Under the pieces are notes generated by a model. The model worked only from the letters and a program-made list of their open reading frames with translations. It was not told where the DNA came from and did not search any database. The position numbers and the translations under genes are program-made. This document shows positions 29,001-60,790 of a stretch of DNA of 64,000 bases, one piece after another (position 1 is the first letter of the stretch; each line of letters opens with the position of its first letter). This DNA comes from Lepisosteus oculatus (taxonomy: Eukaryota; Chordata; Actinopteri; Semionotiformes; Lepisosteidae), in the NCBI RefSeq assembly GCF_040954835.1, contig NC_090698.1, positions 5,764,501 to 5,828,500 of the forward strand, read 5' to 3'.

Positions 29001-30547
29001 GCACTTCTTCAACGCCCAGCCTGACGTCACCGTGGAGATCTTCAACCAGGTGGGCAGGGAGTCTTCCTCGTGGGTGGGGACAGATATCGGGATGTTGCTT
29101 TGCTTGGAAAGCCACTGCTAGAGTGTGCGGCGTCTGGCTGTTCGCCCGCCGCTATCTCAGAGACGTGCCTCATGTCAACCGACAGCTGACCTCTGCTTTT
29201 ATCTGGGTGTTTCAGATCTGTGAGGAGTTGGGAGTCAAGAGCCCATCTAACGTGAAGCTCTTTTCGGGAAAGAGTAAGTACTCCCAGTAATCCCACTTAC
29301 TATACGCTGTCTGTCCTGATTTCTCTACGGGTTTCTGATATGAAGCCTCCTGTCTGCACCTGTGGCATGGAATGCTGTTCTGTGTCTGTCCTGTGCCGCT
29401 GTCTTCAACCTGCCTGTGGTAATTCCAGGGAGAGACTGTAGTCATCTGAGTTCTCCTGTGGGCCTTCTCGCCGCCAGCTCTGCAAAAGAGAGACACCTTG
29501 CTAAGAGTGTCTGAGTGTTTGATGGTAGCGGAGACTCGAGTAAAAATAAAAGGCCTTTGGCCCCCTAATAGACAGGCCGAGACAGCCTAACCTTACCGTG
29601 CAAACAGTAACAGTCAATACATAAATAGGACATAGTGCATAGAACTGGGGCTGTGCCGTGTGATGAAGGCACAGGGCCCGTCTTCATAGCCACATTGCAG
29701 TACACTTGCTTAGTTAAAACTGGTTTGCGCAGCAGGCGTCTTCTCGCAGACAGTGAGTGAAGTGTGCAGAGGCTTTTACCACTGGTGGATGCAGTGTGAA
29801 TAAATTGGACTCCGTATCCGTCTCTCTCCTCATGTGGGGGCGCAGGCGAGCGCAGTTCGTCCGGCCTGCTAGAGTGGGATTCCATCAACGACGCCATGGA
29901 GGCCCTGGCCATGATGAACCACTTCCAGATGAAGAACCCCAGTAAGTAGAGCGTTTGTGCCGGCTCGTGTGCCATCCCGTAGTCCTCTCGAGCCACTTGG
30001 GATCTGGATCGGCTCGCCCGGGGAGCTCGTGTGGGCTAGGCTGACGCGGGACTCTGAGCTCCCGCTGTTGAGTGGAGGAGACAGGGAGTTACGGGGACTG
30101 GCGGGGAGGTCTCCGCGAGACTCTGGTTATTTGTAAATCGCACCACGTCACTTGTGGAGATGATCCTGTGGCGAGACGGTCTAGCCGCCCGTGTTTGGCC
30201 TGCGTGGCTCTCGCTCCAGTCGGGTGAGAGTCTCTGCAGGTTTAGGACGGCAAGCGACAGTGGCGGAGGGGCGCTGGGGGCAAGTATCCTTGCACGCCCG
30301 GCTCAGCAGTGAGCGCTTCCCACGTGTTCAAGCTTGTGCCCCTCGCCGACCGCGGCCCCAGGGCTCCGTGCCTGATGATGGCTCCTGGAGGTGTTAGTCA
30401 TTTCAGGCCTCGTCTGTCTCGTTCTCCCTCTGGGGGCAGAGGATACTTTAGCACAAAAGCTTTCTAATGTTGTTTCTTTCTCCCCTAGATGGTCCCTACC
30501 CCTACACCCTCAAGCTGTGCTTCTCCACTGCGCAGCACGCCAACTAG
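20082..30547 (+). CDS. hnrnpl: Heterogeneous nuclear ribonucleoprotein L
   Basis: Nuclear RNA-binding protein that recognises CA-repeat and CA-rich RNA and regulates alternative splicing and mRNA stability. Coding exons: 20082-20171, 21655-21773, 21873-22110, 22297-22382, 22805-22901, 23055-23127, 27933-28001, 28161-28456, 28618-28739, 28848-29049, 29216-29273, 29846-29941 and 30489-30547; 1605 nt, 534 aa plus TAG. Four RRMs lie near residues 41-115, 132-210, 327-405 and 445-530. A Gly/Pro-rich linker at 235-325 has a nine-proline run. The N-terminus is shorter than in human (589 aa), lacking most of the glycine stretch. The exon 1 donor (ACG|GTGGGG) is the least certain junction; all others join conserved hnRNP L sequence. 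Intron 4 is AT-AC (minor class). Linkage to ech1 matches human 19q13.2, supporting HNRNPL rather than HNRNPLL. Confidence 0.97.
20172..21654 (+). other. hnrnpl intron 1, CpG island continuation
   Basis: A 1.5 kb CpG-rich first intron, probably part of the promoter CpG island that starts near 19500. GC-rich blocks with GTAACGGCAGCCCGGGCGCG repeat at about 20511 and 20547. No additional coding exon is supported. Confidence 0.6.
22383..22804 (+). other. hnrnpl intron 4: AT-AC U12-type (minor spliceosome) intron
   Basis: The 5' end is ATATCCTTT (22383-22391), an exact match to the AT-AC U12 consensus. The 3' end is GCAC, and TTCCTTGAT at 22787-22795 matches the U12 branch consensus TTCCTTRAY with the branch A 10 nt from the intron end. 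Splicing GTG GA to A TTC GAC restores the hnRNP L sequence VEFDSVQSAQ in frame. No GT-AG alternative does this. Confidence 0.96.
22411..22434 (+). repeat. CA-dinucleotide repeat in the U12-type intron
   Basis: A (CA)n tract with one CG interruption, in sense orientation, starting 28 nt inside hnrnpl intron 4. CA repeats are the best known hnRNP L binding motif. Confidence 0.9.
24461..24512 (+). other. Candidate poison exon in hnrnpl intron 6
   Basis: The acceptor is CCTCCCTTTCGCAG (ends 24460) and the donor is GGGAG|GTGCGG (GT at 24513). The 52 nt exon has no stop itself but shifts the frame. Reading on through exon 7 into exon 8 gives TGA near 28200, many junctions upstream of the normal stop, which would trigger nonsense-mediated decay. 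It lies about 130 nt before the CA-rich cluster. This is a by-eye prediction with a modest donor. Confidence 0.3.
24640..25740 (+). promoter_or_regulatory. CA-rich putative splicing-regulatory cluster of hnrnpl
   Basis: About 1.1 kb in which ACA, CAC and CCACA motifs are very dense on the sense strand, with few T runs (for example around 24660-24900, 24960-25030, 25320-25520 and 25660-25720). Composition differs sharply from the flanking T-rich intron. An open frame of 216 codons (24571-25221) is a by-product of the biased composition. Location and content match an hnRNP L-responsive element. Confidence 0.6.
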
Positions 30548-31928: not shown

Positions 31929-34900
31929 ATGGCTGGTATCGCTCTTCGCTGTGCGCTGGGAAAACGTGAGTTTCTTGTTAACAGGTTGGAAGGTTGCGTT
32001 GACAGACTTATCGAAACAAAGCGTTAATCACCAGTGGCAATGTTCTCCCTTCCGCTAGCCGATTTAGTCGCGTCTGCTAGCAACCCATCAAACTGGTTTT
32101 AAATTCTTGTCCCGTGGCTTCAACAAGCAACCAAACTTTGCGCCAGCGGTAACAGTGTTTAACAATTAAACTGCACTCCCGAACAGCAGTGTCAGCATCT
32201 ATCACCCCCGTCCGCGCTTCACTGAGCTCATTTTGGAAGCCGTGTTAAAATCCTTATGGAAAAAAAGTTTCTTAAGCCAGTGGCGCGGATCTGGTGGGCT
32301 GTGTATGAAGTGGGTGAGAGGTCACGCGTTGCTTTTCCAGTGAGTGACCCCACTGAAATTCTGCAACATAACGAGGGTTTTAGAACGATCGATGAACCAC
32401 AATGTTGTCTCAGCAATAACAATTAACAATACGTTTACAACAAACACAATATTTAGGAGGCTCGCTACGCTGTGACAGGAAATCACACTCTGGGCTGCAG
32501 CTCTGTTGAGGTTTCTCCCCAGTAGGATTGAAGCTGTTCTGATTCTGGCAGCTGTGGGACTTCTGGGATTAGAATTGTTATTTTGGGGGAAGAATGTTTG
32601 TCTAATCCCAGAGTATTTCTACCAGTGCAGCAGAAAGTGTCTCTTCTGTGTCTGCTTCTCCCTGCTGGCAGTGGAGCACAACCTGTCCTCTCTGGTCAGT
32701 CAGGTCTGTCTGTGTCCAGTTTCTATGGCCAGGCTGTGGTCACTGAGCCTGTCCTCTCTGGACAGCCAGGTCTGTCTGTGTCCAGTGTCTATGGTCAATG
32801 AGACCATACTTGGTCAAGGTCTGATTCTCCTTTTTGTCTCCCACCCTGGTCCAGTACTGGTCAGTGTGTTGTCTGCTTTCGTTCAGAAGCCTCTGTTTCT
32901 TGGATTCTAGAATGTCTCTGTTTACCAGTGTCCATTCCCTCACCCCAGTCTGCCCCCTCTCTCCTGTCCCAGTCTGCCCCCTCTCTCCTGTCCCAGTCTG
33001 CTCCTCTCTCCTGTCCCTCTCTGCTCCTCTCTCCAGCCTGCTGTAATCCTGTCTCTCCTGTCCCTCTCTGCTCCTCTCTCCTGCCCTGCTGTAATCCTGT
33101 CTCTCCCTCTCTCCTACAGGCCCGGCCTCGTGGCTCCCCAGACTGGGCGTGGTCAGGGCCATGTCGTCGGGGGCGGGGGCTGAGCCCGAGCCCCCCGCGG
33201 CGTTCGAGACGCTGCGTGTTACCAGGGTAACGGACACGGTGACCCACGTGGAGCTGCACCGCCCGGAGAAGCGCAACGCCATGAACAGAGCTTTCTGGAG
33301 GTGGGTGGGCGGGGCGCACGCAGGGGGCGCGCTAACGGGGAAGAGTGACAGTGGAGAGGAGGCTGATGGGAGGAAGTGAACTGATCTGAGGATCTTAGCC
33401 AGCTGTTTGTTTTAAAGAAGTCAGGGTATCTACAAGAGCATGGAGCCATAGTGTTCCATACTCCCACAACCCTTTGTGTAAAGACTTGCCTCCTGTTCAC
33501 GTTTCACTGTTCAGTCTGAACACGTCCAACTCTGTCGATGGCTTTGAGGGTTGTGGACGCTTCGATCAGGCTCCCTGTAGTTTGTCTGCGTAGTCAGAGC
33601 GCAGGGTCAGCCATTTATACGGCGCCCCTGGAGCAGTTTGTGGTAATCTGGATAGCTGCACCTGGATAATGCCACGCCACCTGTCTCTCTCTCTCTCCTC
33701 CTTTCTCTTTCCTCCTGTCTCTCTCTCTCTCTCTCTCCTCCTCTCTCCCTCTCTCCCGCTGTCTGTGTCTCAGGGAGATGGTGCAGTGTTTCTCTCAGAT
33801 CTCTGCGGACCCGGAGTGCCGTGCCGTTGTGGTTTCAGGAGCTGGTAAAATATTCACTGCCGGTAAGACGGAGATGGAGCCCGGCTGTGCTGTCGTCTGT
33901 GTGGACAAGAGCAGGCCGTAGCTCCTGACCAGCAGTACTGTAGAGCCAGTCTGGGGTCTGGGTTCAAGCTCCGTGAAGTTGGCCCCCCTACAGACGGCAG
34001 AAACGATGAAACCCACCTCATTCGTTAGCGCTACGTTTGTGCCTGTTTGTGCCGTTGAAAGTAGCGTTTGTGTCCCAAGATATAGCGCCTTGACGTTCCA
34101 GTGATCACGTGACCATACACGGCGCGTTTGACCTCCAGTGACCCCGTCTGCCGAGTTCAAGCGCTCTGTTACCGGCGCGAGAGTAACAGTTCTGCAAGTC
34201 TGTTCCTCTGTTTGCCCTGGTGAAGGTGCAGCGGTGGAGTTTGCGTTTAATATCATTATCTCCTACGCGTTTGTGTGAACAGGAAAATTAATTAATTAAT
34301 TTCGGTTCCAATATCGTACCCGAATCAGAAGAGCTGCGGGTGAAGCCTTAAATAGCGAAGAGGCTTTAATGAACTCATCTTAATACCTCATAGCGGTGTC
34401 CTTTTTTAGAAATCTGAAGAAGTAAAAGGCTTCGCATTGTCTCTTTCTCACATAAACACAGGCATCAAGGGACGTGTGAAAATTCACCCTGTCTGTCGAG
34501 CCACGTATTTTAAAAGACCTGAATTTGCAACTTTCTGAACCATTGATGCTCTTCGTTATCCAAAGCACATTCGCCAACGTGAAAAGGAACCAGTATTTCA
34601 GGACTTTTTTTTTTTTAAAGGGGCACTATGTATAAAGTTTAGACAGTTCATAACACATGCGAGTCTTCCATCTCACACATGCAGACCGCAGCAATATTGG
34701 AAAATATTCTTCTTTTCACAGAACAGAAGTGAACATATGTCTAGGTTCTCTGAAAAACTGGCGTTATCCACGTGTTTGTATTTACAGGGGTCTTATGCGC
34801 AAACATGAAACGATGAGCTCACAGTCCTTTTATCTGTGTGTTCCTGGTCAGCCCTTGGTGTAGAATACAGCGTGAGGGCACGCCTTGACCTCTGAAGACA

Positions 34901-37900
34901 CAGGTATGACTGCCTTTGTTAGATCGTCGGATTTCTCCCAGGTGAAGTCGTGTCTTCTGCAGTCTGCAATGTAATGACCCAGGACATGCTTGCTTGTCCA
35001 GCTCCATGAAGTCCCCCTCTACCTCTGAAACAGCACAAACGATGAAACCCACCGCAATTGTTAGTGCTGCGTTTGTGCCGTTGAAAGTAGCAGTTGTGCT
35101 GCTTTTGTTTCCGAGATATAGCGCCCTGTTTAATCGGGTAATCGCGTGGCTGTCTTGAAAAAACAGCACAAATGCTACTTTCAAGGGGGGGGACTTCATG
35201 GACATGCATGGTCACGTGATCACCAGAAAAACAAGACGCTATATCTCGGGAACGCAAGCAGCACAAATGCTATATTCAACGACACCAAATGGCACAAATG
35301 CAGCACTAACGAATGAGGTGGGTTTCATCGTTTGTGCTGTCTGTAGGGGGGCCGGCTTCACGGAGCTCTGTATTCACCCTGTGCAGAGTTTGCCCTGGCT
35401 GACAGTAGACTGAAAGTCCGTGACGAGCCCCCACAGTCACAGGAGCTCAAACGCCCCTGCTCTCAGGCTCCCAGTGCACAGCGGTGTGGTCCAGTCCAGG
35501 TCTCATTACCTGCAGGTTCTCACTGCGGACTGCACTGGTGGAGCTTGTTTGAGCTCGCGCTGGGCACTGCGGTATCGAGCGCCGCCGGTGAGAGCCGGAC
35601 GGGCCCGGACCGCCGCGCGGGCAGACGCTGACGGCGCTGTGCTCTGTGCCAGGTATCGACCTCATGGACATAGCCGGCCACGTCCTGCAGCCCGAGGGGG
35701 ACGACACTGCCCGCAAGGCCTGGAACATCCGCAAGACCGTCTGCCAGTACCAGGAGACCTTCACCGTCATCGAGAGGGTGAGCGGGGCGGGGCGGGGCCA
35801 GTCCTGTCCTGGCAGGTGCATCACGGGGCAACAGGCAAAGCTCCGTGCGGCAGGCTTGTGGCGCCCCCTGGTGGCGCGGCCCAGGGCCACAGCTGTGAGC
35901 AGATTAATCAGGGCTGATCTCACACGAGAGGGGGCAAGCGGTTCGGGACACGTTTACGCACGGGGAGGGGCAGACTGGGGACGGCTGGAGGTCTTGTCCT
36001 TCATGGTGTCGTCCCCCATCCACCCTGCTCTCCAGGGCACGTGTCCATCCAGCTGTCCTGTCGCTGGGGGGCAGGAGTGGACAGCGCCCCTGTAGGAGTG
36101 ACCAGCTGTCCTGTCGCTGGGGGGACAGGAGTGGACAGGGCCCCTGTAGGAGTGACCGGCTGTCCTGTCGCTGGGGGGCAGGAGTGGACAGCGCCCCTGT
36201 AGGAGTGACCGGCTGTCCTGTCGCTGGGGGGCAGGAGTGGACAGCGCCCCTGTAGGAGTGACCGGCTGTCCTGTCGCTGGGGGGACAGGAGTGGACAGGG
36301 CCCTTGAGAGGGGCAGGGGACTCGCTGTAGGAGTGACGGGCTGTCTTCTGTCCTCTGTCCGCAGTGCCCGAAGCCCGTGGTGGTGGCTGTCCATGGAGCC
36401 TGCGTGGGAGGAGGTCAGTGTGGGCTGGTTTTGCGTAGCGCCCGGTGACCTGATAGCAGGGGTGGGTCCGAGCAGCAGCGCGCTGAGCTCTGCGCTCCTG
36501 GGAGCTGCAGCTGTCCGCTCAGCGGGTGTCTGGGAACAGAGACAGTGTGTGCGCAGTCGGAGTGAGGCGGGCGAGCCTCCCGCGGGGATCAGTGAGAATA
36601 CCGCCGGGCGGTGGAGCGCGTGTGGTCGTTGTGCAGTGCGCGTGTTGAGCTGTGTGTCTCTGTCGCCAGGGGTGGACCTGATCTCAGCCTGCGACATCAG
36701 ACTCTGCACTCAGGACGCCTGGTTCCAGGTCAAGGTAGGAGACCTCTCCCCCTCTGTGAACTCTGACCCCTGACCCTTAGAGAGGTGCCCGGTGCCCTGG
36801 GAGTACTGGGCAGTTGAAAGTAGAAGAATACAGATGACAAATCCACTTACTCATGACTGTTAGCCCTCTTAGTAAACACACTGAAGTATACTTCGCTGAT
36901 ACCACTTCACAATAACAGAGGAAGAAAAATATTTCAAGTTTTGAACTTTTTAACTTTGGATTAACGAGGACCGAAGAACTTTATTGCAGGAGACGCAACC
37001 TCTCCACTTGGATTTTGTTCAGATGAATCAGACCTGAGATCACCGATTAGACATTGCAAATTCAAAAACCAACAATAACACAGTGGATCTATTAAAAAGG
37101 ATAGGATCTATGTGACCTCAGAACGCAGGTTTAGCTTTATGATGCAGACTTTGCCAGCTGTGACTGGGATTTCCCAAGCAGGAGAGCACAGCTGGTGTTT
37201 CCCAGTTTTTGTTTTGGGTTTGATCCTGTACGTTGGGTAGCCCTGTGTGGGGAGTTTGCATGTTCTCCCCAGTCCACATGGCAGTCTTCTTCTGTGGGAC
37301 TGTCTGACTTCCTCTCCCAGTCCAGAAACTTCCCGTTAGCATTGCTGTCCAGCCACCCTGCTGTTAGGCCAGAGGAAGAATCCTTTCTTCCCAAGGAGCT
37401 GCAGGCCGCTGTCCCAGTAGCTGTGAAACTGGTTATTTCAGCACAGCGAGCAGGCAGAGAAACAGCCCCCCTCTCTGGTCTGGCCAGCCGCAGTCTCCAG
37501 GCCTACAGCTGCCGCAGGAGCCCAGCAGGGAACAACTGATTAAAGGGGACCAGACCCGCCTTTAACCAGATCGTCACCGACTCCCCGAGTGGAAGACGGC
37601 ACCTTCCGTTCTGACAAGACTAAAGAGATTCAGTTCCTTACCTCAGGCACGTGTGGGGTCACTCTTCTTTGAAGGCTGCAACCCCACGAAACGGGCCTCA
37701 GAATAGAGGTCCCAGTCCCCCTGTTCACAGCCGGGCGCTTTCAGAACGGGTTGAGCTCGTCTCGTTTTGCAGTTGGTGACCAACTAAACGCCTGAAGCGC
37801 CAGCAGTCAGCCCTCTGATTAGGACCCAGGCCCCCGAGTAAACACGCAGGCCAGCGGGGTAGACGCCCCGGATCTGCCAGAGTAAACACGCAGGCCAGCG

Positions 37901-40900
37901 GGGTAGACGCCCCGGATCTGCCAGAGTAAACACGCAGGCCAGCGGGGTAGACGCCCCGGATCTGCCAGAGTAAACACGCAGGCCAGCGGGGTAGACGCCC
38001 CGGATCTGCCAGAATAAACACGCAGGCCAGCGGGGTAGACGCCCCAGATCTGCCAGAGTAAACGCGCAGGCCAGCGGGGTAGACGCCCTGGCTCTGCTGG
38101 GGTCTGGAGTCGGTCCGAGAGAACCGGTCGCTCCGCGAGCCCCGAGCAGGAGTCTCGCCCGTCACGGAAACTCTTCCCTCGCCTGCAGGAGGTGGACATC
38201 GGGCTGGCGGCGGACGTGGGCACTCTGCAGCGCCTCCCCAAGGTGATCGGAAGCCGCAGGTGAGCTCCGGTCAAGCTGCAGGGTGAATCAGGACCAGCAG
38301 CCTCCTGCCGTCCACTTCAGACTGCAGGGTGCACCTGTGGGCAGGGCCCGGCCCGCCTTCCGGCCTCCAGACACGCCAGGCAGCCGCGCCGGCGCCCACG
38401 GTGAGGTGCCCAGCACCTGCGACTCAAACACCGGTCCATCGACGACCTCGCCCCTGTCTGACACGTTGGAGATGACTTACTGCGGGTTGCTGTAACAGCA
38501 GTGTTGCCTGGTTAGGTAGAGAGCACATGTAATACAAGCCAAGTGCAATTAACCCAGTTCCACTCAAGCTTTTTTCAGATTTGTGCAAGGAATGGAAGTG
38601 CAATACAGAAAAATCCCGCCTTTAATTGGCGTCTCTAGAGTTAGTTTTAGATCGAAGTGTACTTTGTCCACAACAAACAACTAATAACACGTTGTGCTGT
38701 CATACTATGTTAGCCCTGAGCCCTACTGCCCTGTCCATTGTAGACAAATGGATTAGCTCTGCAGCGTGAGGATCAAAGTACAGAGAAAGAAGAGCTTCAC
38801 AGGTTTAGACGTTTTCACAGCTTGCTGTCAGCCCTTCGATCGGTGGTCAGCTGATAGTTGATGAACTAGCCATGTAAAGGCTTCAAAGAGACGTGCGGAA
38901 AGCTCAAGTCACATGTTGGGTGCCTCACTGTGCAGCCGCGGTGTGGCCTGGTTTGGTAGAGGTAGAAAAGGCACAGGGCACTCAACCTGTCAACAGGGGG
39001 CGCTGCTTTTACCCCTGTAGGCTGTGGCATTGCTTACACTACCCTTCGCCCACTCAGTTTGATCCAGGCTTTCCCACACCGGAGCAGGCGGCTGTCTCTG
39101 GATTGTGCCTACAGGTGCTCGCTGTCTTGCCGTGTTGCTGTGTTGTCGACTTGGCCTCTCCGCTTGTCTGCCTTTCAGTCTGGTGAATGAGCTCGCCCTC
39201 ACTGCCAGGAAGATGTGGTCTGAAGAAGCCAAGAGCTGTGGGCTGGTCAGGTCTGTCTCCCGTCTCTCCATAGGGGGTCCGTCTTTGGCCCTGTGTTCTG
39301 TCATTGTGGATCAGTCTCCTGTTTGCGTAACGGGCTGTATTCTCTCTCGCTGCGAGACCGTCTCCTTTCTTTCTGCCAGACTGCTTGTCTCTCCTCTGTC
39401 TGCAAGATCTCTTATAATAATAATTCCTTACACTTATATAGCACTTTTCTGGACACTCCACTCAGAGCGCTTTACAGGTAATGGGGATCCCCTCCACCAC
39501 CACCAGTGTGCAGCCCCACCTGGATGATACATAGGCAGCCATAGTGCACCAGTACTCTCCCCACACACCAGCTCTCAGTGGGAGGAGAGCAGAGTGATGA
39601 AGCCAGTTCAGAGAGGGGGATTATTAGGAGGCCATGATTGGTAAAGTAAAGGGGGAAATTTGACCAGGACACCGGGGTAACACCCCTACTCTTTTTGAGA
39701 AACGCCCTGGGATTGTTAATGACCACAGAGAGTCAGGATCTCAGTTTTACATCTCATCCGAAGGATGGCGCCTTTTTACAGTATAGTGTCCCCGTCACTA
39801 TACTGGGGCATTAGGACCCCCACAGACCACAGGGTGAGCGCCCCCTACTGGCCCCACTAACAGCTCTTCCAGCCTCTGCTTTCCCAGGAGTCTCCCATCC
39901 AGGTACTGACCAGGCTCACACTGCGGAGCTCCAGTAGGCAGCCAGCTGTGAGCTGCAAGGTGACGGAGCTGCTGGCTGTAACTTCTAGCTGGGGGGTTCT
40001 CTCTCTCTTTCTGCCAGTTTTTGTGTCTGTGAGAGTGCTGATCTGAAGGGCCCTGTCTGTTGTGCTGTGTCATGGACAGAGAGAGATGCTGCCTGTACTT
40101 TCCTTCAGCCGCGTGTTTCCAGACAAGGAGACGATGATGAGCGCGGCTCTGGAGCTGGCAGCAGAGATCGCAGCGAGGAGCCCAGTCGCAGTACAGGGCA
40201 CCAAGATCAACCTGCTGTACTCCCGCGACCACAGTGTGCAGGAAAGCCTGGACTACATAGTGAGTGAGGCCAATATACTGTACACACACACACTGATCAA
40301 CCCCACACACACTGGACTACATAGTGAGTGAGGCCAATATACCGTACACACACACACTGATCAACCCCACACACACTGGACTACATAGTGAGTGAGGCCA
40401 ATATACCATACACACACACACTGATCAACCCCACACACACTGGACTACATAGTGAGTGAGGCCAATATACCATACACACACACTGATCAACCCCACACAC
40501 ACTGGACTACATAGTGAGTGAGGCCAATATACTGTACACACACACACACACTGATCAACCCCACACACACTGGACTACATAGTGAGTGAGGCCAATATAC
40601 CACACACACACACTGATCAACCCCACACACACTGGACTACATAGTGAGTGAGGCCAATATACCATACACACACTGATCAACCCCACACACACTGGACTAC
40701 ATAGTGAGTGAGGCCAATATACCATACACACACACACTGATCAACCCCACACACACTGGACTACATAGTGAGTGAGGCCAATATACCATACACACACACT
40801 GATCAACCCCACACACACTGGACTACATAGTGAGTGAGGCCAATATACTGTACACACACACACTGATCAACCCCACACACACTGGACTACATAGTGAGTG

Positions 40901-43293
40901 AGGCCAATATACCATACACACACACTGATCAACCCCACACACACTGGACTACATAGTGAGTGAGGCCAATATACTGTACACACACACACTGATCAACCCC
41001 ACACACACTGGACTACATAGTGAGTGAGGCCAATATACCACACACACTGATCAACCCCACACACACTGGACTACATAGTGAGTGAGGCCAATATACCATA
41101 CACACACTGATCAACCCCACACACACTGGACTACATAGTGAGTGAGGCCAATATACCATACACACACACACTGATCAACCCCACACACACTGGACTACAT
41201 AGTGAGTGAGGCCAATATACCATACACACACACTGATCAACCCCACACACACTGGACTACATAGTGAGTGAGGCCAATATACTGTACACACACACACTGA
41301 TCAACCCCACACACACTGGACTACATAGTGAGTGAGGCCAATATACCATACACACACACTGATCAACCCCACACACACTGGACTACATAGTGAGTGAGGC
41401 CAATATACTGTACACACACACACTGATCAACCCCACACACACTGGACTACATAGTGAGTGAGGCCAATATACCACACACACACACTGATCAACCCCACAC
41501 ACACTGGACTACATAGTGAGTGAGGCCAATATACTGTACACACACACACTGATCAACCCCACACACACTGGACTACATAGTGAGTGAGGCCAATATACCA
41601 CACACACACACTGATCAACCCCACACACACTGGACTACATAGTGAGTGAGGCCAATATACCATACACACACTGATCAACCCCACACACACTGGACTACAT
41701 AGTGAGTGAGGCCAATATACTGTTCACACACACACAGACTGGACTACATAGTGAGTGAGGCCAATATACCACACACACACACTGATCAACCCCACACACA
41801 CTGGACTACATAGTGAGTGAGGCCAATATACTGTACACACACACACTGATCAACCCCACACACACTGGACTACATAGCGAGTGAGGCCAATATACCGTAC
41901 ACACACATCAACCCCACACACACTGGACTACATAGTGAGTGAGGCCAATATACTGTACACACACACACTGATCAACCCCACACACACTGGACTACATAGT
42001 GAGTGAGGCCAATATACCACACACACACACTGATCAACCCCACACACACTGGACTACATAGTGAGTGAGGCCAATATACCATACACACACTGATCAACCC
42101 CACACACACTGGACTACATAGTGAGTGAGGCCAATATACCATACACACACACACTGATCAACCCCACACACACTGGACTACATAGTGAGTGAGGCCAATA
42201 TACCATACACACACACTGATCAACCCCACGCACACTGGACTACATAGTGAGTGAGGCCAATATACCATACACACACACACTGATCAACCCCACACACACT
42301 GGACTACATAGTGAGTGAGGCCAATATACCATACACACACACACTGATCAACCCCACACACACTGGACTACATAGTGAGTGAGGCCAATATACCATACAC
42401 ACACACACTGATCAACCCCACACACACTGGACTACATAGTGAGTGAGGCCAATATACCATACACACACACTGATCAACCCCACACACACTGGACTACATA
42501 GTGAGTGAGGCCAATATACTGTACACACACACACTGATCAACCCCACACACACTGGACTACATAGTGAGTGAGGCCAATATACCATACACACACACTGAT
42601 CAACCCCACACACACTGGACTACATAGTGAGTGAGGCCAATATACTGTACACACACACACTGATCAATCCCACACACACTGGACTACATAGTGAGTGAGG
42701 CCAATATACCACACACACACACTGATCAACCCCACACACACTGGACTACATAGTGAGTGAGGCCAATATACCATACACACACTGATCAACCCCACACACA
42801 CTGGACTACATAGTGAGTGAGGCCAATATACCATACACACACACTGATCAACCCCACACACACTAGACTACATAGTGAGTGAGGCCAATATACCATACAC
42901 ACACACTGATCAACCCCACACACACTGGACTACATAGTGAGTGAGGCCAATATACTGTTCACACACACACAGACTGGACTACATAGTGAGTGAGGCCAAT
43001 ATACCGTACACACACATCAACCCCACCCACACCCAGGAGACACACACACACTGATCAACCCCACCCACAGTTTTTTCTTTGGAAATGTGTCATAATGCAG
43101 AGGGTGAGGTTCTTGAAGCGGGGCTCTTGGGGGACAGGAGGACAGGCTGGCTGGGAGCTCCTGACCTCAGCGTTGCCTGTGCTTTCAGGCCACGTGGAAC
43201 ATGAGCATGCTGCAGACCGAGGACATCGTCAAGGCGGCTCAGGCAGTGCTGGAGAAGAGGAGCCCGAAGGACGTGCCTTTCTCCAAACTGTGA
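31929..43293 (+). CDS. ech1: Delta(3,5)-Delta(2,4)-dienoyl-CoA isomerase
   Basis: Crotonase-fold isomerase converting 3,5-dienoyl-CoA to 2,4-dienoyl-CoA in beta-oxidation of odd-position unsaturated fatty acids. Coding exons: 31929-31965, 33120-33300, 33774-33862, 35653-35777, 36365-36413, 36670-36734, 38189-38259, 39179-39250, 40109-40259 and 43189-43293; 945 nt, 314 aa plus TGA (human 328). The start was chosen because MAGIALRCALGK joins in frame to RPASWLPRLGVVRA, giving an Arg-rich, acid-free mitochondrial leader. The C-terminus FSKL is a peroxisomal PTS1, so dual targeting is expected as in mammals. The residues equivalent to catalytic Asp/Glu/Asp are D163 (GGGVDL), E183 (VKEVD) and D191 (LAADVG). 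SGAGKIFTAG and HGACVGGG form the CoA/oxyanion regions. The first exon is the least certain part. Confidence 0.95.
32460..32900 (-). mobile_element. 3' fragment of a non-LTR retrotransposon in ech1 intron 1
   Basis: It shares GGCTGCAGCTCTGTTGAGGT, GATTCTGGCAGCTGTGGGA, TAATCCCAGAGTATTTCTAC and AGGCTGTGGTCACTGAGCCT with 49715-50640 and 58735-59990. Read on the minus strand, the better copy at 58735-59990 encodes the end of a reverse transcriptase ORF. Confidence 0.75.
32936..33118 (+). repeat. CT-rich tandem repeat before ech1 exon 2
   Basis: Repeated blocks of CTCTCTCCTGTCCCAGTCTG and CCCTCTCTGCTCCTCTCTCC run up to the exon 2 acceptor, forming a very long polypyrimidine tract. Confidence 0.8.
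33445..33560 (-). repeat. Dispersed repeat, TTTACACAAAG family fragment
   Basis: It reads in reverse: GTGTTCCATACTCCCACAAC, then CCTTTGTGTAAAG. Located in ech1 intron 2. Confidence 0.5.
33596..33645 (-). mobile_element. tRNA-derived SINE, short fragment
   Basis: A 50 bp match to the middle of the tRNA-SINE: CAGAGCGCAGGGTCAGCCAT, TTATACGGCGCCCCTGGAGC. Located in ech1 intron 2. Confidence 0.65.
33968..34116 (+). mobile_element. Foldback element, single arm, ech1 intron 3
   Basis: It shares GCCCCCCTACAGACGGCAGA, AACGATGAAACCCACCTCAT and AGATATAGCGCCTTGA with both arms of the inverted-repeat element at 35010-35360. One arm only is present. Confidence 0.6.
35010..35360. mobile_element. Inverted-repeat (foldback/MITE-like) element in ech1 intron 3
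   Basis: The left arm at about 35015-35125 (ACAGCACAAACGATGAAACC ... CGAGATATAGCGCC) is the imperfect reverse complement of the right arm at 35241-35352 (GCTATATCTCGGGAACGC ... GGTTTCATCGTTTGTGCTG). About 115 bp of spacer separates them. There is no transposase ORF, so it is non-autonomous. I do not assign a superfamily. Confidence 0.7.
36050..36305 (+). repeat. Minisatellite in ech1 intron 4, about 52 bp x 5
   Basis: Units contain GCTGTCCTGTCGCTGGGGGG, AGGAGTGGACAG, CGCCCCTGTAGGAGTGACC. It ends about 60 nt before exon 5. Confidence 0.9.
37838..38100 (+). repeat. Minisatellite in ech1 intron 6, about 44 bp x 6
   Basis: Units contain GAGTAAACACGCAGGCCAGC and GGGGTAGACGCCCCGGATCT. Several units are identical, and the later ones diverge (CAGATC, TGGCTC). 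It ends about 90 nt before exon 7. Confidence 0.95.
39414..39985 (-). mobile_element. SINE3-type (5S rRNA-derived) SINE, near full length, ech1 intron 8
   Basis: On the minus strand, a 5S-like head at about 39885-39985 contains CAGTACCTGGATGGGAGACT, which is the 5S rRNA box region. The body runs through CCCCAGTATAGTGACGGGGA and the TGTTACCCCGGTGTCCTGG block to an L2-like tail near 39414-39480 ending in (TTA)n. The order matches zebrafish SINE3 as I remember it. Confidence 0.9.
40248..43010 (+). repeat. 2.7 kb minisatellite copying the ech1 exon 9 5' splice site, about 45 units
   Basis: Units of about 55-68 bp read CTGGACTACATA|GTGAGTGAGG, CCAATATAC, a variable CA run, CTGATCAACCCCACACACA. 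The first 12 nt are the last 12 coding nt of exon 9, followed by its donor. The first unit is the real exon end (donor at 40260), and copies fill intron 9 to about 43010. Length variation lies mainly in the CA run and the CCATAC/CTGTAC/CCACAC alternatives. Confidence 0.97.
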
Positions 43294-43465: not shown

Positions 43466-43471
43466 AATAAA
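43466..43471 (+). terminator. ech1 polyadenylation signal AATAAA
   Basis: AATAAA 173 nt after the stop codon, followed by a GT-rich stretch (GTGGTTCTGGTGCTCTGG). It gives a short 3' UTR. Confidence 0.8.
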
Positions 43472-45846: not shown

Positions 45847-48720
45847 TAGATATAATAATAAACTTTATAGAGCACCTTTCACACAAATAGGAGCTCAAAG
45901 TGCTTTACAAACCAAGTGTAAAAATAAAATCTTAAAATTAAGAGATATATTTTTAGTTGTAAAGGCAAACACAGTAATACAGTAAAGCAAAATAAATGTC
46001 AATTTTTTCTTGAAAAATAAATAAAAATTAGGAAATTCATAATAAAATAAGAACAATAAAAAAGATACAAAGAAAGAACAAATAACCATTTTAACTAAAG
46101 GCTAAATTCAAAAGATATGTTTTCAAATGTTTTTTAAAACAATGTACCGAGCTTGACTGCCTAATAAAAAGTGGTAGAGGGTTCCAGAAGGGCAGTAGTT
46201 GCAGGTCTCAGGTCACATATATGAACATATAAAGACAGACATTCAATAAGGTACACAGGTGCTAGACCATTTAGAGTTTTAAAAACAAGTAAAAGAACTT
46301 TAAAATCTATCCTAGATAATACAGGTAACCAGTGAAGTTCTTTCAGAACTGGAGTGATACAGTATGTGTTCCCTTTCTTGTTTTTGTTGCTGCTGCATTT
46401 TGAACAAGTTTTAAGGGATTTATCGTTTTCTTGGGAAGCCCACTAAACAGAGCATTACAATAATCGATTCTACTGGTAACAAATGCATGGACACATTTTT
46501 CTGCACCGCCCTGGGATAAAAAAGGCCTAATTTTCGCAATATTTCTTAAATGATAGAATGCAACTTTAGTAACCCTATTTATGTGAGGGACAAAACAAAG
46601 ATCAGAATCTAGTTTCATGCTTCAGATTTAACACATGAAGCAAAAGAGCCCAATTAATCCTCCAAGAGTTCTTTCTGAATTTTAGTGCCCAATATCTTAT
46701 CTTGATTGAACTGTAGAAAATTTTGGGACATCCACTGAGAAATATCCAACACACAGCCGGTTAGTCTGTTGACAGAGTTTTGATCTTCAGATGGAATAGA
46801 GATATACAGTTGTATATCATCGGCATAGCTTTATGAAAATTGATCCCATGGTTCCTAATTACATTACCTAAAGGTAACATATATCATGAAAAGAGCAGAG
46901 GTCCTAAAATGGAACCCTGCGGAACTCCACAAGAAATGTCAACATTTTTTGATGATGGATTTCCCAAAGCAACAAAAAACTGTCTGTTCATCAAATAAGA
47001 TTTAAGCCATTCTAAAACCGTCCCTGAAAGACCTACCCAGTTTTCAAGTCGGTGGATCAGAATCTTGTGATCAACTATATCGAAAGCTGCACTGAGATCA
47101 AGTAAAACCCAAACAGAGGCATAATGTTTATCGGTTTTCTGTACTATGGTGAGAACGTAAACCTGACTGAAATTTCTCAAACAAATTGTTAGAGATCAGA
47201 TATTCATTTCATTGAAACAAAACAACTTTCTCTAAAATTTTACTTAAAAAAGGAAAATTTGAAATAGGTCTAAAATTGCTGACAACAGCAGGATCCATAT
47301 TAGTCTTTTTTAGTAAAGGCTTCACCAAGGCAGTCTTGAAAGCATTTGGGAAAACTCCAGTTGACAGAGAGCAATTTACAATAGTTAAATCATTATCTTG
47401 CACGCAATCAAAAACCTTAAAAAGAGTTGTAGGAACAGGCTCAAGATCACATGTGGAAGACCTTAATTTGTCTGTAACAGTTTTAAGTGTCTGAATATTA
47501 TTAACAGAGAAAGATGTCATAACAGATGGAGGTGGCTGATCAGGACAATCGGGGAAACTCATCGTGGTTGTCTGAGCTATATTCTGTCTAATCAAAGTTA
47601 TTTTATCTTGGAAACGAATTTCAAACTCTTCACATTTTGTAGAAGATACATCTAAAGAAAAATTACAAGAAAAAGTAGGGTTTATTAAACGTTCTATAGT
47701 GGAAAACAGTACTTTGGTATGATCTTTGTGTTTGTTAATTACATTAGAGAAGTACAACTGTCTTGCCCTTTTTATGGGAGTATTGTAGGCAGAAATCTGC
47801 TCTCTCAGAATGTCATAACGAACCTGCAGCTTAGTTTTTCTCCATAAGCGCTCTGATTTGTGACAATTTCCCTTAAGTTGAAGTATTTCCTCATTCATCC
47901 AAGGAGTGTTATGAGTGAGATTTTCTTCCATTTGGCTGGTGCAACAGTGTCAAGAGTTTCCCTAAGTTTAATATTCAGAGCATGAACCAGATCATTGCAA
48001 GAGGGAGATGGCGCTGTGCATGAAACATTATTTAAAACGTTTTTAAACGTCTCAGCTGTTTTTTAATTTATGTAGCGTTTCTTAAAACATAACATTCAGA
48101 TTCTTCCTGACTTGTAAATTAACATGAAAGAATACACAGAGATGGTCCGATATCAGTACATCAGATATTAGTAACACATTTGTGTCTAGACTTTTACCGA
48201 CGAGCATGTCCAAAATAGCTCAGGATCTGTGCCTGTGGCTGGAAGGTTTCCAGTTCAAATCCCGTGGCCGGCAGAGGAATCCTACTCCTTTGGGCCCCTG
48301 AGCGAGGCCCTTAACCCCAACTGCTCCAGGGGCGCCGTATCAATGGCTGACACTGTGCTCTGACCCCCAGCTTCTCTCCCTGTCTGTGTGTCTCACGGAG
48401 AGCAAGCTGGGGTCTGTGAAAAGACACGTTCCTTATGCAAGAGAATGCATAGGGTGAATAAAGTGATCCAATCTTAAGAGGTGACCACGTCTGTGAATAG
48501 AACTATCCACATGCTGCTTATAGTCAAACGTCTCCAAGAGTCTAATATAGCATTAGTGTCCGAGGAGTCATCAATATGCAAGTTAAAATCACCAGTGAGA
48601 AGAGTTAGTCGTTCAGCAAATACTCCAAAGAAACTGAGTGGTAGATTGCCGTGGAAAGACAATCCAATTTCCATAGAGGAAAGTAAAAAGTGATATGAAT
48701 GAAAATATCCAGTCCTGCCT
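45847..48720 (-). mobile_element. L2/CR1-clade LINE, decayed, with nested SINE
   Basis: On the minus strand: an APE-type endonuclease piece with GDFNLHIDD at 48474-48674, a linker ORF (47209-47931), then reverse transcriptase with DLSAAFDIVDHKIL and GVPQGSILGPLLFS (46884-47180). The C-terminal part has RIDYCNALFSGLP (46343-46618). The 3' end has TGTAAAGCACTTTGAGCTCC and a TTTATTATTATATC tail. Frameshifts and stops separate the pieces, so it is inactive. A tRNA-SINE interrupts it at 48218-48478. It is AT-rich relative to its surroundings. The clade is inferred from the RT motifs and the tail. Confidence 0.9.
48218..48478 (+). mobile_element. tRNA-derived SINE nested in the LINE
   Basis: It begins near CTCAGGATCTGTGCCTGTGG and ends AATAAAGTGATCCAATCTTA. 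The endonuclease-like coding sequence of the LINE resumes directly after it, so the SINE inserted later, in the opposite orientation. Confidence 0.9.
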
Positions 48721-48968: not shown

Positions 48969-51900
48969 ATGGCACTGTCAGCCTGGCTGCTTTTACCACT
49001 CCTGCACCTGGCCGGCTCAGGTGAGTCCTGATCGAGCCGCGCTCTCTTCCCTGGCTGACTTACTCGTTAGCTTCTCAAACCTTTTGAGCAGTGAACTGAG
49101 AGCAGCAATTTCATCTTTTCACACTCTGCCCGAAAGCAGCACTACGTGCCCGAATCGATTCTAGCCAGCACGCCTCGCGAAACCTTCTACGACACGTAAA
49201 TAACCTTCTTTTTTGCGAAGAAAACTAAGTGAAACCACTGAAGAACAGCCCCGCGCGGCAGCTCGTCCCGTGACGAGACTCGGTTCCAGGAAGTGAAAGT
49301 AGCTGACCGGCGCGAGCGCTCGCACCCGCAGCCCTGCCGAGCGTCACTGACGCTCCGGGTTCCGGATGACGAACAGCGTCCAGCCTGGGACTGTGGACCG
49401 ACGCTGGAGAGATGAAATTACAGACACCCGCTCGGGAGAGACAGCCTGCAACACTACAAGACCCAACACTTCGAGATTGTACCCACCGTCACTCGAGACA
49501 AACTCCGCGTGGCTTCGCTCGCTCCGGTCACCAGCCCTGAGCAGCAGTCATCGCGAGCAGCTGTAAAAAAAACCCGCACTCCCACATTCAAGCAGCTTTC
49601 AGCTGCACTGCTGATACAATTAAAACCTCACCTGCAGGTGTTTGCAGAAAACGGTTCTGTTGGGACATTTACAAGCCTCACTTAAAACAGTCTTGGGAGA
49701 CAAGCTCACTGTCTGCTCCCCAGGCTGTGACAGGAGATGACACACTGGGCTGCAGCTCTGTTGAGGTTTCTCCCCAGTAGGATTGAAGCTGTTCTGATTC
49801 TGGCAGCTGTGGGAATTCTGGGATTAGATTTATTTTTGGGGAAGAATGTTTGTCTAATCCCAGAGTATTTCTACCAGTGAAATAGAAAATGTCCTCTCTG
49901 GACAGCCAGGTCTGTCCAGTTTTCTATGGCCAGGCTGTGGTCACTGAGCCTGTCCTCTCTGGTCAGCCAGGTCTGTCTGTGTCCAGTGTCTATGGTCAGG
50001 CTGTGGTCACTGAGCCTGTCCTCTCTGGACAGCCAGGTCTGTGTCCAGTTTCTTTGGCCAGGCTGTGGTCACTGAGCCTGTCCTCTCTGGACAGCCAGGT
50101 CTGTCTGTGTCCAGTGTCTATGGTAGGCTGTGGTCACTGAGCCTGTCCTCTCTGGACAGCCAGGTCTGTGTCCAGTTTCTGTGGCCAGGCTGTGGTCACT
50201 GAGCCTGTCCTCTCTGAACAGGCTGTGGTCACTGAGCCTGTCCTCTCTGGACAGGCTGTGGTCACTGAGCCTGTCCTCTCTGGACAGCCAGGTCTGTGTC
50301 CAGTTTCTTTGGCCAGGCTGTGGTCACTGAGCCTGTCCTCTCTGGACAGCCAGGTCTGTCTGTGTCCAGTGTCTATGGTAGGCTGTGGTCACTGAGCCTG
50401 TCCTCTCTGGACAGCCAGGTCTGTGTCCAGTTTCTTTGGCCAGGCTGTGGTCACTGAGCCTGTACTTCCTCAGGGTCTGTTTCTCTTTGCAGTCTCTTAC
50501 CTTTCTCAGATACAGTTCATTTCATTGCAGTTGGTGTATGTGTGTGTTTCCCAGCGGGTGAGGTCATGCTGTTTGGCTTGTGCTGTGATTGGCTTGACTT
50601 TGATTTGTGCTGCCCTGCGGCTGGCTGGTGTCAGTGAGCTTCTCCCTCTCTCCCTCTCAGGAAGAGTGTTCGATGAGATAAAACAGAGGGTGCTGGAGAG
50701 GCAGGAGCAGGCAATCAAAGAGCACCTCCTGCTACAGGCCGCCTCAGGGCGCCCCCTGGTGACAGAGGGGCGTCTAGAGCAACCACTGGACCACTTCGAC
50801 AGGCAGAACAACAGAACCTACTTGCAGGTACAGCAGTCCGCCCGGCGTAGCGCAGACAGGTCGGTGGGCAGTGCATGTCTGGGGGGGATGTCCCTCAGGG
50901 AGCCCCCACACTCCGGGTGCTGGGTACTGCAGTCCTGCAAGGACAAGATCAGCTCCCCAGTGGGCTACAGGAGCCCCCCCTAGCTTGTAACCTCCTCCAG
51001 CCCTGCTGATAATACCTGACTTCGGGGACCTTGTTCCACACACCTACTGCTCTCGGTGTTAAGCGGCAGCCCCGTGTCTGTGTGCGTGTCTGTCTGTCTC
51101 TCAGAGGTACTTCGTCAACGAGCAGTTCTGGAAGCGTCGCACCGGCCCCGTGTTCCTGTACATCGGAGGAGAGGCGGCCATCTCCGAGTTCAGCGTGCAG
51201 GGAGGTCTGTGTGTGTCTCCGTGACCCCCCTGCCCACACACACACTCACTCACACACACACAGCCCCCGGCCTCACTGTCCAGCTGCCTCTCTGCCCCAG
51301 GTCACCATGTGTCCATGGCGCAGGACCACGGAGCCCTCCTGGTGTCCCTGGAGCACCGCTTCTACGGACAGAGCATCCCCGCCGACGGCATGGAGACCCC
51401 CACACTGAGATACCTCAGCAGCCAGCAGGCGTGAGTCACGAGTCACACTCACACAGACACAGCCAGAACACGGTCGCGGTGCTGGCAGTGCACCTGGGAA
51501 TGAGCACACTGATGAGGCCATGTGACACCTACCCATAAATCTGTCCACACCCCGACACCACACCGAGAGAGACAGACACACTGGGGTCAGTCCACACCCC
51601 GACACCACACCGAGAGAGACAGACACACTGGGGTCAGTCCACACCCCGACACCACACCGAGAGAGACAGACACACTGGGGTCAAGGGTCAGTCCACACCC
51701 TGACACTGCACTGAGAGAGACAGACACACTGGGGTCAGTCCACACCCCGACACCACACCGAGAGAGACGGACACACTGGGGTCAGTCCACACCCCGACAC
51801 CACACCGAGAGAGACAGACACACTGGGGTCAGTCCACACCCCGACACCACACCGAGAGAGACAGACACACGGGTCAGTCCACACCCCGACACCACACCGA

Positions 51901-54900
51901 GAGAGACGGACACACTGGGGTGAGTCCACACCCTGACACCACACCGAGAGAGACAGACACACGGGTCAGTCCACACCCTGACACCACACCGAGAGAGACA
52001 GACACACGGGTCAGTCCACACCCCGACACCACACCGAGAGAGACGGACACACTGGGGTGAGTCCACACCCTGACACTGCACCGAGAGAGACAGACACACA
52101 GGGGTCAGGGGTCAGTCCACACACTGATAGTGAAAAGGGAGGCTGTAAGACACAGACACATTGGAAAAGGAACAGGAAGCAGAAAACATGACAGGAAAAG
52201 AAGTTCTGAACGTTGTGCACCCTCATTTCAGAGCCTCTTCTCTCTTCCTGCTCTCCTCTCTCTCTCCCCCTCAGGCTGGCTGATTTAGTGTCCTTCCAGC
52301 AGAACATCACCTCCCGCTACGAGCTGACACCCCGCAACACCTGGATCTGTTTTGGGGGCTCCTACCCCGGGTCCCTGTCAGCCTGGCTCCGTGGCAAGGT
52401 ACCCCGCAACGCCCGCTCTCCTGTGGCCAGGCGGGAGGCTGGAGTGATTGTCCTGCAGAGGCCCGAGCCCAGCTGTCTCCAGGCCAGCGCCAGGCCCATG
52501 TGAGCCGCCCGCGCTCGCCTGTGGTGTCACCTGCTTGCCGCTCACCGCTGGCCTGTTTGGGTTTCAGTTCCCACACCTGGTCTACGGCGCAGTGGCTTCG
52601 TCTGCCCCCGTCAGAGCTCAGCTGGACTTCACTGGCTACAACAAGGTACCAGCAGGGGGCAGCACACCCTGCACTGATGCCACCTCACGCCTTTACCCAA
52701 AGGGTTGTGGGACTTGGGGACACGTCACCCAGCCATGTCATTACAGTTACAGGGCAGTCAGACTCCTTTACTGCAGGTGCTTTTCTCATCTGGGGTCAGA
52801 ATCAGGCATGTCACACTTGATTGTTAGAATAATTGCTTACACTTATATAGGCTTTTCTGGACACTCCACTCAGAGCACTTTACAAGTAATGGGGATCCCC
52901 TCCAGCCCTACCACTGTGTACCCCCACCTGGATGATGTGACAGCAGCCATAGAGCACCAGTCCTCTCCCCACACACCAGCTCTCAGTGGGGAGAGGAAGA
53001 GAGTGATGGAGCCAGTTCAGAGATGGGGATTATTAGGAGGCCATGATTGGTAAGGTCCAGTGGGAAATTTGGCCAGGACACCAGGGTAACACCCCTACTC
53101 TTTTCGCGAGACGCCCTGGAATTTTTAATGACCACAGAGAGTCAGGACCTTGGTTTTACATGTCATATTAAAGACAGCGCCTTTTTACAGTACAGTTTCC
53201 CCATCACTATAGTGGGGCATTAGGACCCTCACAGACTACACCAACACCTCTTCCAGCAGCAAGCTTAGCTATTCCCATGAGCCTCCCCTCCAGGTACTGG
53301 CCGGGCTCACACTGTGGAGCTCCAGTGGGCTGCTAGTTGTGAGCTGCAGGGCGATATGGCGATATCAACCCCCCCCTCTCTCTTCCAGGTCGTGGCGAAG
53401 AGTCTTGCCAACCCCGCAGTGGGGGGCTCGGACAGGGTGAGTACAGCCCAGCCGCCCGCCGGCCCGGTTCTCCATCCCCGACCGCGCGCGCGGCGCCACC
53501 TGCTGGCGGCCGGCCTCACGCCCGCCCGCCCGCCTGCCTCCCTGCAGTGCCTGTCTGCGGTGAGGGAGGGCTTTTCGGCCGTGGAGTCTGCCCTGGCCAG
53601 CCGGAACGTCACGGCCGTGTCCCGGGACTTCAGCTGCTGCTCCGCCGTGTCCGAGCCGGAGGACCAGCGGGAGCTGCTGTACAGCCTGGCGGACATCGCC
53701 ATGGGCGCCGTGCAGTATGACCAGGAGGGGGCGCCGCTGGGCGTCGCCCAGCTCTGCCGGATCATGGCAGGGAACTCCAGCGGGGCGGACAGCTACACCC
53801 GCCTCGCCCAGCTGGCCAAGGTACGCCCGCGGCCGCCGCCCACTCCGCGCCCTCCCCGCGGCAGGCTCGTGGGCCGCTCACCCCTGTCCGTCCCTCAGGC
53901 CTACCTGGAGCGAACGGCCAAGCCCTGCCTGGAGACGTCCCACCAGCAGAGCGTGTCCGAGCTGCGGGACACCACCCTGAGGCCCAGCGGAGTCGGGGAG
54001 AGGCAGTGGTACTACCAGACCTGCACCGAGTTCGGATACTGTGAGGATCTCGCCGCACGGCAGCCGCCACAGAGGTCGCACTGCCCCCCAGTTAGTTTCC
54101 TTTCTCTTGGGCGACATTAGCTCGCGTCGCCAATGACAGAGATGTCCTCAAGCCAGCACCAAGGCTTCTGGGCACAGACGCAGGACAGCCCGACTGTCAC
54201 ACGGGGCTAGACTGACCCATTGACTGGCCACGCACATTTCCCCCTCCTCCTTCAGAAACACCCCCCCAGCGCCCCCTGCTGGACACAGTGGCACTGAGTA
54301 GCCTCTCGGCCCGTGAGAGAACTGCTTCAGGGACTCGCATTGCCACAGCTGCCTGCACTGCCGCACCACGGCACAGGGCGTTGGCGACTTTCCGAGGAGC
54401 GTCCCGTCGCTCTGCAGGACGCTGGTCTGCTCGGCCCTGAGAGGAAACCCCCCAGGGCAGGGCATGCCCACCACCGCCGACACACCCCACTGGCCCGTAC
54501 CTGACGGCCCACAGTCACACACCAGCCACTGGGGAGGTGTGTCCACTGGACTGCACACACCTCTGGCTCAGGAGTGGATAGAGCGGCCATCTGTCGCCCC
54601 AGGGGAGTCTAACGCCCGCGGTGTGTGTGTGTGTGTGCAGATCAGACCTGTGAGGATGACGGGTGCCCCTTCTCCCGGCTCCTGACCCTGAAGTCCCAGA
54701 CGGAGCTCTGCCCCCTGGTGTTCGGCCTGAAGGAGAGCAGCCTGCCGCTGGCGGTGGGCTTCACCAACGATTACTACGGCTCCGACCACCCTGGCACTCA
54801 CAGGGTGCTGTACGTCAACGGTGAGAGCGAGGACATTTTATGTGGAAATCTCGGCCTTTCTCTCATACAGCCGTTCCAGCTTTTCAGTCGGTGGCGGTAT

Positions 54901-60279: not shown

Positions 60280-60790
60280 ACCTGTGATACTCCCACTGGC
60301 ACACCTAGACTGGATCACACCGCGAGTCTGGAAACACTGGCACACCTAGACTGGATCGCACTGCAAGTCTGGAAACACTGGCACACCTAGACTGGATCAC
60401 ACTGCTGTGCACTGGGAGTCTGACTGGGAACACTGGCACACCTAGACTGGATCACACTGCTGCACACTGGGAGTCTGATTGGGAACACTGGCACACCTAG
60501 ACTGGATCACACTGCGAGTCTGGAAACACTGGCACACCTAGACTGGATTGCACTGCTGTGCACTGGGAGTCTGGAAACACTGGCACACCTAGACTGGATC
60601 ACACTGCTGTGCACTGGGAGTTTGACTGGGAACACTGGCACACCAAGACTGGATCACACAGCTGTGCACTGGGAGTCTGGAAACACTGGCACACCTAGAC
60701 TGGATCTCAATGCTGTGCACTGGGAGTCTGGAAATACTGGTACACCAAGACTGGATCACACAGCTGTGCACTGGGAGTCTGACACTGTGA
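60280..60790 (+). repeat. Minisatellite, about 50 bp x 10
   Basis: Units contain CTGGAAACACTGGCACACCT, AGACTGGATCACACTGCTGT, GCACTGGGAGT, with a shorter variant lacking the GCACTGGGAGT block. Intergenic. Confidence 0.95.

Follow-up and report, generated by a model that had tools for sequence, protein, structure and literature searches.

A minisatellite in ech1 of Lepisosteus oculatus that begins within a coding exon and multiplies its 5' splice site

How is one 5' splice site picked from a row of 45, nearly all of them identical? The question is raised by ech1 (dienoyl-CoA isomerase), on the + strand of the 64-kb stretch of Lepisosteus oculatus DNA analysed here (the window), where a minisatellite carries the end of a coding exon and its donor in unit after unit. 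Nine ech1 coding exons with consistent phases could be placed between an ATG at 33161 and a stop codon ending at 43293 (a transit-peptide exon upstream of these was not found). The frame is intact over 288 codons, its product matches Pfam ECH_1 (2.1e-50), and the raw translation of the region matches dienoyl-CoA isomerase structures in the PDB. The penultimate coding exon lies between introns of 858 nt (before) and 2929 nt (after), and its G+C is 0.60 versus 0.48 in its intron. The original prediction called it exon 9; it is the eighth of the exons placed and would be the ninth only if a further, unlocated upstream exon exists. The human ech1 gene has 10 exons. The features of the locus are as follows:

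33161-33300, 33774-33862, 35653-35777, 36365-36413, 36670-36734, 38189-38259 and 39179-39250, + strand: seven upstream ech1 coding exons (frame and phase)
40109..40259, + strand: ech1 penultimate coding exon, 151 nt, ending ...GACTACATA, phase 0 (frame and phase; PDB alignments cover the exon)
40248..43016, + strand: minisatellite, 45 copies of exon end plus donor core, units 49-68 nt, first 12 nt coding (TRF, parsing, unit types)
40248..40259, + strand: coding 12-mer CTGGACTACATA carried by the units
40260..40269, + strand: authentic donor GTGAGTGAGG, first of 45 (frame, phase)
40324..42995, + strand: 44 downstream donor copies, 43 GT and one GC, first to last
41877..41886, + strand: the single GC donor copy GCGAGTGAGG, unit 27, GC at 41877-41878
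43017..43075, + strand: right edge of the array, degenerate half units without exon part (sequence)
43189..43293, + strand: ech1 last coding exon, acceptor ...gtgctttcag, TGA at its end (frame and phase)
43466..43471, + strand: AATAAA poly(A) signal
36052-36303, 37836-38097, 49890-50463, 51543-52108 and 60294-60781: other minisatellites, unit length ~40-130 nt; the first two lie in introns of ech1, shortly before exons

The array and its register with the exon can be read directly from the DNA. The 2.77-kb minisatellite opens 12 nt inside the penultimate coding exon (true donor at 40259/40260), and the core GGACTACATA/GTGAGTGAGGCCAATATAC occurs in 45 copies from 40250 to 43004 when 3 mismatches are allowed. 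The array is not wholly intronic, its first 12 nt being coding; its units start in the exon, run into the intron and carry a donor like the true one, and minisatellite makes up ~94% of the last intron. The donor GTGAGTGAGG is found 44 times in the window, always inside the array, where base composition predicts 0.07 occurrences per strand; on the other strand of the window there is none. GT is present at 44 of the 45 array donors and the 20-nt core is identical in 43 of 45 (true donor included), while the number of exon nt common to the downstream copies is exactly 12 in 43 of the 44 and 9 in the remaining one. The proposal that the array starts within the exon and multiplies its 5' splice site is thereby borne out, including the 12 coding nt of the register, and so are its coordinates and its estimate of about 45 units. 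GGACTACATAGTGAGTGAGG occurs 43 times, which is the true site and 42 perfect decoys, and the exceptions are the GC donor of unit 27 and the altered exon end of unit 43 (CTAGAC in place of CTGGAC).

The units are mostly 60-64 nt long, and their length differences come chiefly from the CA tract. The array contains 86 CA runs and 204 CACACA, as against 57 CACACA in the other 61.2 kb of the window. Variation is confined mainly to the CA tract and one dinucleotide, with two substitutions in 45 copies of a 29-nt core, and the array is thus young or homogenised. Twelve types of tail make up 13 distinct full units among the 44 complete ones, in irregular order, and one six-unit block, the longest repeated, occurs again (matched by 1 of 1000 shuffles), which suggests block duplication. 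The half units at 43017-43075 are likely a remnant of the pre-array intron. Could the array, or its copy number, be an assembly artefact? The original prediction had named this as its possible undoing, and an exact internal repeat of 443 nt, the longest in the array, is beyond sizing by short reads. However, the array is placed in one 75.4-Mb contig, its units are diverse and irregularly ordered as just described, its 3' flank is single copy in the genome, and like architecture is found in other genes (below). The unit itself was not found elsewhere in the 1.2-Gb genome, in which at least 46 matches all fall at this locus. On the strength of the single contig and the unit diversity, an artefact looks very improbable.

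The surroundings of the array hold several further minisatellites elsewhere in the window (listed above), and a pyrimidine-rich one (CTCTCTCCTGTCC...) at 32944-33113, which contains several CAGs, stops a few nt short of the apparent acceptor (33119/33120) of the first located ech1 exon. Upstream of the array lie hnrnpl (19950-29300; PDB hnRNP L match 1.9e-16 and Pfam RRM_5) and, by eye, an SRSF7-like gene at 11100-12000, making two splicing-factor genes; a PDB search of 27000-30500 in one frame gave no match, and the correct frame led to hnRNP L. Peptidase S28 exons (Pfam) are present downstream of ech1 at 50400-54800, and a broken LINE reading frame was seen by eye on the - strand at 46160-47950, without a Pfam match. 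An Rfam search of the window gave only one weak tRNA match, outside the array.

The outcome of using each donor follows from the reading frame. Donor 1 is the only one of the 45 that gives a normal end and hence the normal ech1 protein. Donor 2 adds 64 nt and shifts the frame, in which no stop is met up to 43480 and which stays open to 43568, beyond the AATAAA at 43466. Donor 3 leads to a stop that precedes the last junction by 56 nt, and donors 4-45 lead to the same stop, which then lies 120 to 2654 nt upstream of that junction. As judged from the sequence by the decay rule (a stop more than 50-55 nt upstream of the last junction), transcripts from donors 3-45 would be expected to be degraded. 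None of the 44 downstream copies could replace donor 1 in making the normal protein.

Is ech1 alone in its genome? We searched the 1.2 Gb for three donor-like 8- or 9-mers at gaps of 20-50 or 50-80 nt and inspected 18 arrays from the matches listed, which for AGGTGAGT and CAGGTGAGT were those of the first contigs only; the C29 AAGGTGAGT array and all AGGTAAGT arrays are outside these 18, and ech1, given beforehand, is not a find of the survey. Three of the 18 begin at a coding exon end, one, on the other strand, repeats an acceptor and one starts 45 nt after an exon end; by eye, no clear exon was found in the other 13. The five are as follows:

C1:15611500-15616500 of genome G000, - strand: letmd1 array (L031), ten in-frame donors
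C4:2399152-2407647 of G000, - strand: pagr1 array (L040/L042) in an intron of 8.6 kb, starting at the exon end, 165 AGGTGAGT donors
C30:10189500-10195500 of G000, + strand: EGF exon of a megf8-like gene with a 1.2-kb intron (L046), 26 donors
C5:47392000-47396000 of G000, - strand: acceptor mirror case before a fibronectin-III exon (L044), ten copies
C3:10927000-10931500 of G000, - strand: array of 17 donors starting 45 nt past the end of a coding exon, with units similar to that end (L036)

In the gene that we take to be letmd1, from its resemblance to the human protein, three later exons match Pfam LETM1_RBD in the order of the profile, one at 1.1e-7 and two, at 4.5e-5 and 3.5e-5, short of the curated cut-off; PDB and Pfam searches with a single letmd1 exon gave no match of use. 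Its 10 donors are spaced 54 or 51 nt apart and share 33 exon nt (21 in the last). Every one of them keeps the frame; with each further unit the protein would thus gain 17 or 18 residues, and the units could be a splice-made protein repeat. What we presume to be pagr1 (Pfam PAXIP1_C, 4e-18) has its 165 donors spread over 8.5 kb, with main spacings of 38 and 62 nt and the next exon 122 nt past the last donor; all 164 decoys run into a stop directly behind the first donor. In the gene that we take to be megf8-like (Pfam EGF_LMN_ATRN, 3.9e-16) the 26 donors lie in 45-nt units that mostly have 7-10 exon nt in common (2 nt in two of them), and each of the 25 decoys meets a stop, which in 24 of them precedes the junction by over 50 nt. 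The mirror case has ten TCCACAG/GAC acceptors, among them the true one, at a spacing of 46 nt ahead of an exon that matches Pfam fn3 (7.7e-7).

Donors are not general seeds of minisatellites, an idea that we tried and rejected. Triple arrays of AGGTGAGT (2056 matches versus 307 in the reversed control) and of CAGGTGAGT (1351 versus 136 reversed), as well as arrays of AAGGTGAGT (35 versus 0 reversed) and TGGTGAGT (40 versus 1), are in excess; however, arrays of AGGTAAGT are depleted (7 versus 134 in the control). These matches overlap and are not counts of arrays, and the reversed control is only approximate. Common G-rich minisatellites, some of which happen to include splice sites, may account for the excess of GTGAGT arrays.

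We consider it probable that the ech1 array grew by slippage, that splicing uses the first donor by exon definition, and that copies 2-45 are silent passengers. The course of events would be as follows: a founding tandem duplication took in the 12 coding nt at the exon's end and ~50 nt of the intron, and slippage together with block duplication enlarged the resulting minisatellite to 45 units. With the 151-nt exon between long introns, the donor nearest the upstream acceptor would be paired with it across the exon, the later donors would then be intronic and be excised together with the intron, and copies 2-45, being unused, would be tolerated. Array growth itself would protect donor 1 by moving the exon into the exon-definition regime: without the extra units the last intron would be about 203 nt, less than the ~250 nt under which preference goes to the donor closest to the downstream acceptor, and one added unit already takes it past this line.

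The original prediction left open how the first donor is picked, and the extracts of PMC9225289 on which we draw answer this in general terms, by exon definition. In these, the upstream one of two identical donors with flanking introns of 365 nt was used exclusively in five minigenes, and 725 human events in which the flanks were long and the donors nearly equal in strength showed a preference for the upstream donor. According to the same extracts the preference switches near 200-250 nt, introns under ~250 nt favouring the downstream donor, and long exons are disfavoured (PMC9225289). They also report a downstream preference over all events before strength matching, and exon skipping when paired donors on larger minigene exons were weakened (PMC9225289). 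U1 pairing of the ech1 array donor is -6.5 kcal/mol, the weakest of eight in the gene (others -7.0 to -11.3), and a donor this weak, taken with the skipping in that part of PMC9225289, counts against a choice of donor 1 by exon definition. So do the lengths of the exons that decoys 2 and 3 would give, only 215 and 279 nt. By analogy with the use of downstream units in IFI6, as far as the source extract goes, some leakage to downstream ech1 donors is likely. The best decoy acceptor in the array has a pyrimidine content of 0.60 over 20 nt (5 T) versus 0.70 (8 T) at the true acceptor, a small margin which weakly indicates that the array is without good decoy acceptors.

Might the decoys be masked instead? 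In this alternative, which we regard as unlikely, the CA tail before a decoy would pair with UAGUGAGUG and bury the donor, or hnRNP L would occupy the CA tracts. This protein binds CA-rich RNA (extract of PMC7708053) and, in the part of PMC3165201 considered, silences near a donor or within exons and enhances from downstream; its action would therefore run in the same direction as the hairpin. We folded naked RNA and calculated opening costs, U1 pairing and unpaired probabilities. With 60 nt on each side, donor 1 costs 3.5 kcal/mol to open and the decoys 6.9 on average, all 44 being harder to open, and donor 1 was cheapest in all five window sizes tried; when U1 pairing is included the values are -3.0 for donor 1 and +0.45 on average for the decoys (range -1.16 to +3.07, 4 of 44 below zero). 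CACACA lies at most 30 nt upstream of 43 of the 44 decoys and is absent at donor 1, in keeping with its abundance in the array (above), and the burial could be traced to pairing of the CA tail with UAGUGAGUG, in which the exon upstream of donor 1 cannot take part. The hnrnpl gene itself is just upstream of ech1, an arrangement that we take to be a conserved neighbourhood and do not count as evidence. However, when local unpaired probability is the measure, donor 1 comes only 2nd, 2nd and 4th among the 45 and is mostly paired itself, two other ech1 donors are as costly to open, and 112 of 300 dinucleotide-shuffled upstream sequences bury the donor at least as much as observed. With random window sequence placed upstream the cost averaged 5.7, and 5.7% of the 281 constructs equalled donor 1 in openness, so the odd feature is the unusually open exon context of donor 1. 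When the CA tracts were held unpaired, as by a protein, only 12 of the 44 decoys were harder to open at 37 C and 7 at 20 C (43 of 44 at 20 C with the CA free); the difference thus vanishes, and the hairpin and protein versions oppose each other. Nor does masking generalise, since decoys are harder to open in 53 of 164 cases in pagr1, 6 of 25 in the megf8-like gene and 0 of 9 in letmd1. The same logic of donor choice as in ech1 fits pagr1 and the megf8-like gene, where decoy use ends in a stop, and donor proximity under exon definition could cover the donor cases, which masking cannot. A selected hairpin was accordingly rejected on the shuffles, the CA-unpaired control, the second measure and the three other genes, and is kept as a possible contributor; as modelled, the burial of the decoys is a matter of composition and not of selected structure. 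An effect of hnRNP L on the array is putative.

A different alternative gives the array a function: some transcripts would use downstream donors and yield non-stop or decayed mRNA, and copy number would tune ech1 output. The inability of all 44 downstream copies to give the normal protein suits such a switch, as does the use of downstream units that IFI6 is said, in the extract at hand, to make; in letmd1, where all ten donors are in frame, alternative products are even possible. Against this, the ech1 unit lengths vary irregularly, and the two substitutions found over 45 x 29 core sites give no sign of donor selection, although an array this uniform is without power to detect selection for or against decoys. 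We judge the switch improbable. U1 can protect transcripts, and the 44 further U1-type sites before the last ech1 exon could have a use of their own, for example in silencing poly(A) sites that would act prematurely within that intron, which we think very unlikely. Exon-definition choice of donor 1, with the other copies as passengers, is the reading that we retain.

How does the ech1 array compare with known systems? The minisatellite of human 6-16/IFI6, said to have been described by Turri, Cuin and Porter in 1995 (NAR 23:1854), reportedly has a unit of about 12 bp. The introns with CA repeats under hnRNP L regulation, reportedly those of Hui (2003, 2005; eNOS), resemble ech1 in having a CA-rich tract directly downstream of the donor, next to it; in ech1, as its sequence reads, the CA tracts differ in alternating with 44 further donors. 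Two of the IFI6 repeat units further downstream are said to act as donors, so that three mRNAs result (extract of PMC4526556). The likeness, within that extract, is that a minisatellite gives one transcript several donors; however, several IFI6 units are used and give protein variants, whereas the ech1 units are mostly 60-64 nt, CA-rich and in 45 copies, and their downstream use would break the frame. Letmd1, with its units in frame, is nearer to IFI6 than ech1 is. Downstream use would keep the protein in letmd1 (10 of 10) and lose it in ech1 (44 of 44), and we are unsure whether this property defines the kind. Minisatellite growth at exon-intron boundaries, the feature shared with ech1, is reported to change splicing in human genes of segmental duplications (PMC2812944, in part), but there half of the repeats are in coding exons, units average 30 bp in 4 copies and the boundary cases are interpreted as new introns; no long donor row appears in the portion of PMC2812944 considered. 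CeRep25B of C. elegans is likewise an intronic minisatellite tied to splicing decisions, but it carries regulatory motifs and not copies of an exon end and donor (extract of PMC4039745). In the open-licence literature, searched by titles and abstract openings among the matches listed, no further donor row besides 6-16/IFI6 is named. Calling this type of array unusual was too strong, given the IFI6 precedent (as extracted) and at least three other coding genes in this genome. As far as the literature search shows, the kind was known already, and what is new is how large the array is, that such arrays recur within a single genome, and the mirror case with acceptors.

The usual test of how identical donors compete has two sites in a minigene; here there are rows of 10, 26, 45 and 165 donor-type sites (counting the true one), those of ech1 and letmd1 nearly all identical, with units of 38-68 nt, U1 pairing of -6.5 to -12.7 kcal/mol and differing contexts across the four genes. 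The rule of donor choice and its leakage could be measured directly in these arrays by cDNA sequencing. The ech1 locus suggests that tandem growth may start in coding sequence and stretch an intron more than 10-fold (from 203 nt to 2929 nt, provided that the one-unit state is ancestral) with the frame intact. More tentatively, as something possible rather than probable, minisatellites that swallow splice sites may be a recurrent class here (four genes or more, with rows of 10 to 165 donor-type sites, and one with 10 acceptors), persisting by self-protection: in lengthening the intron the array would bring the exon under exon definition, with only the outermost original site seen. If this is true, the arrays would form a natural series for donor choice against number, spacing and strength, and would represent a route from a short intron to a long one.
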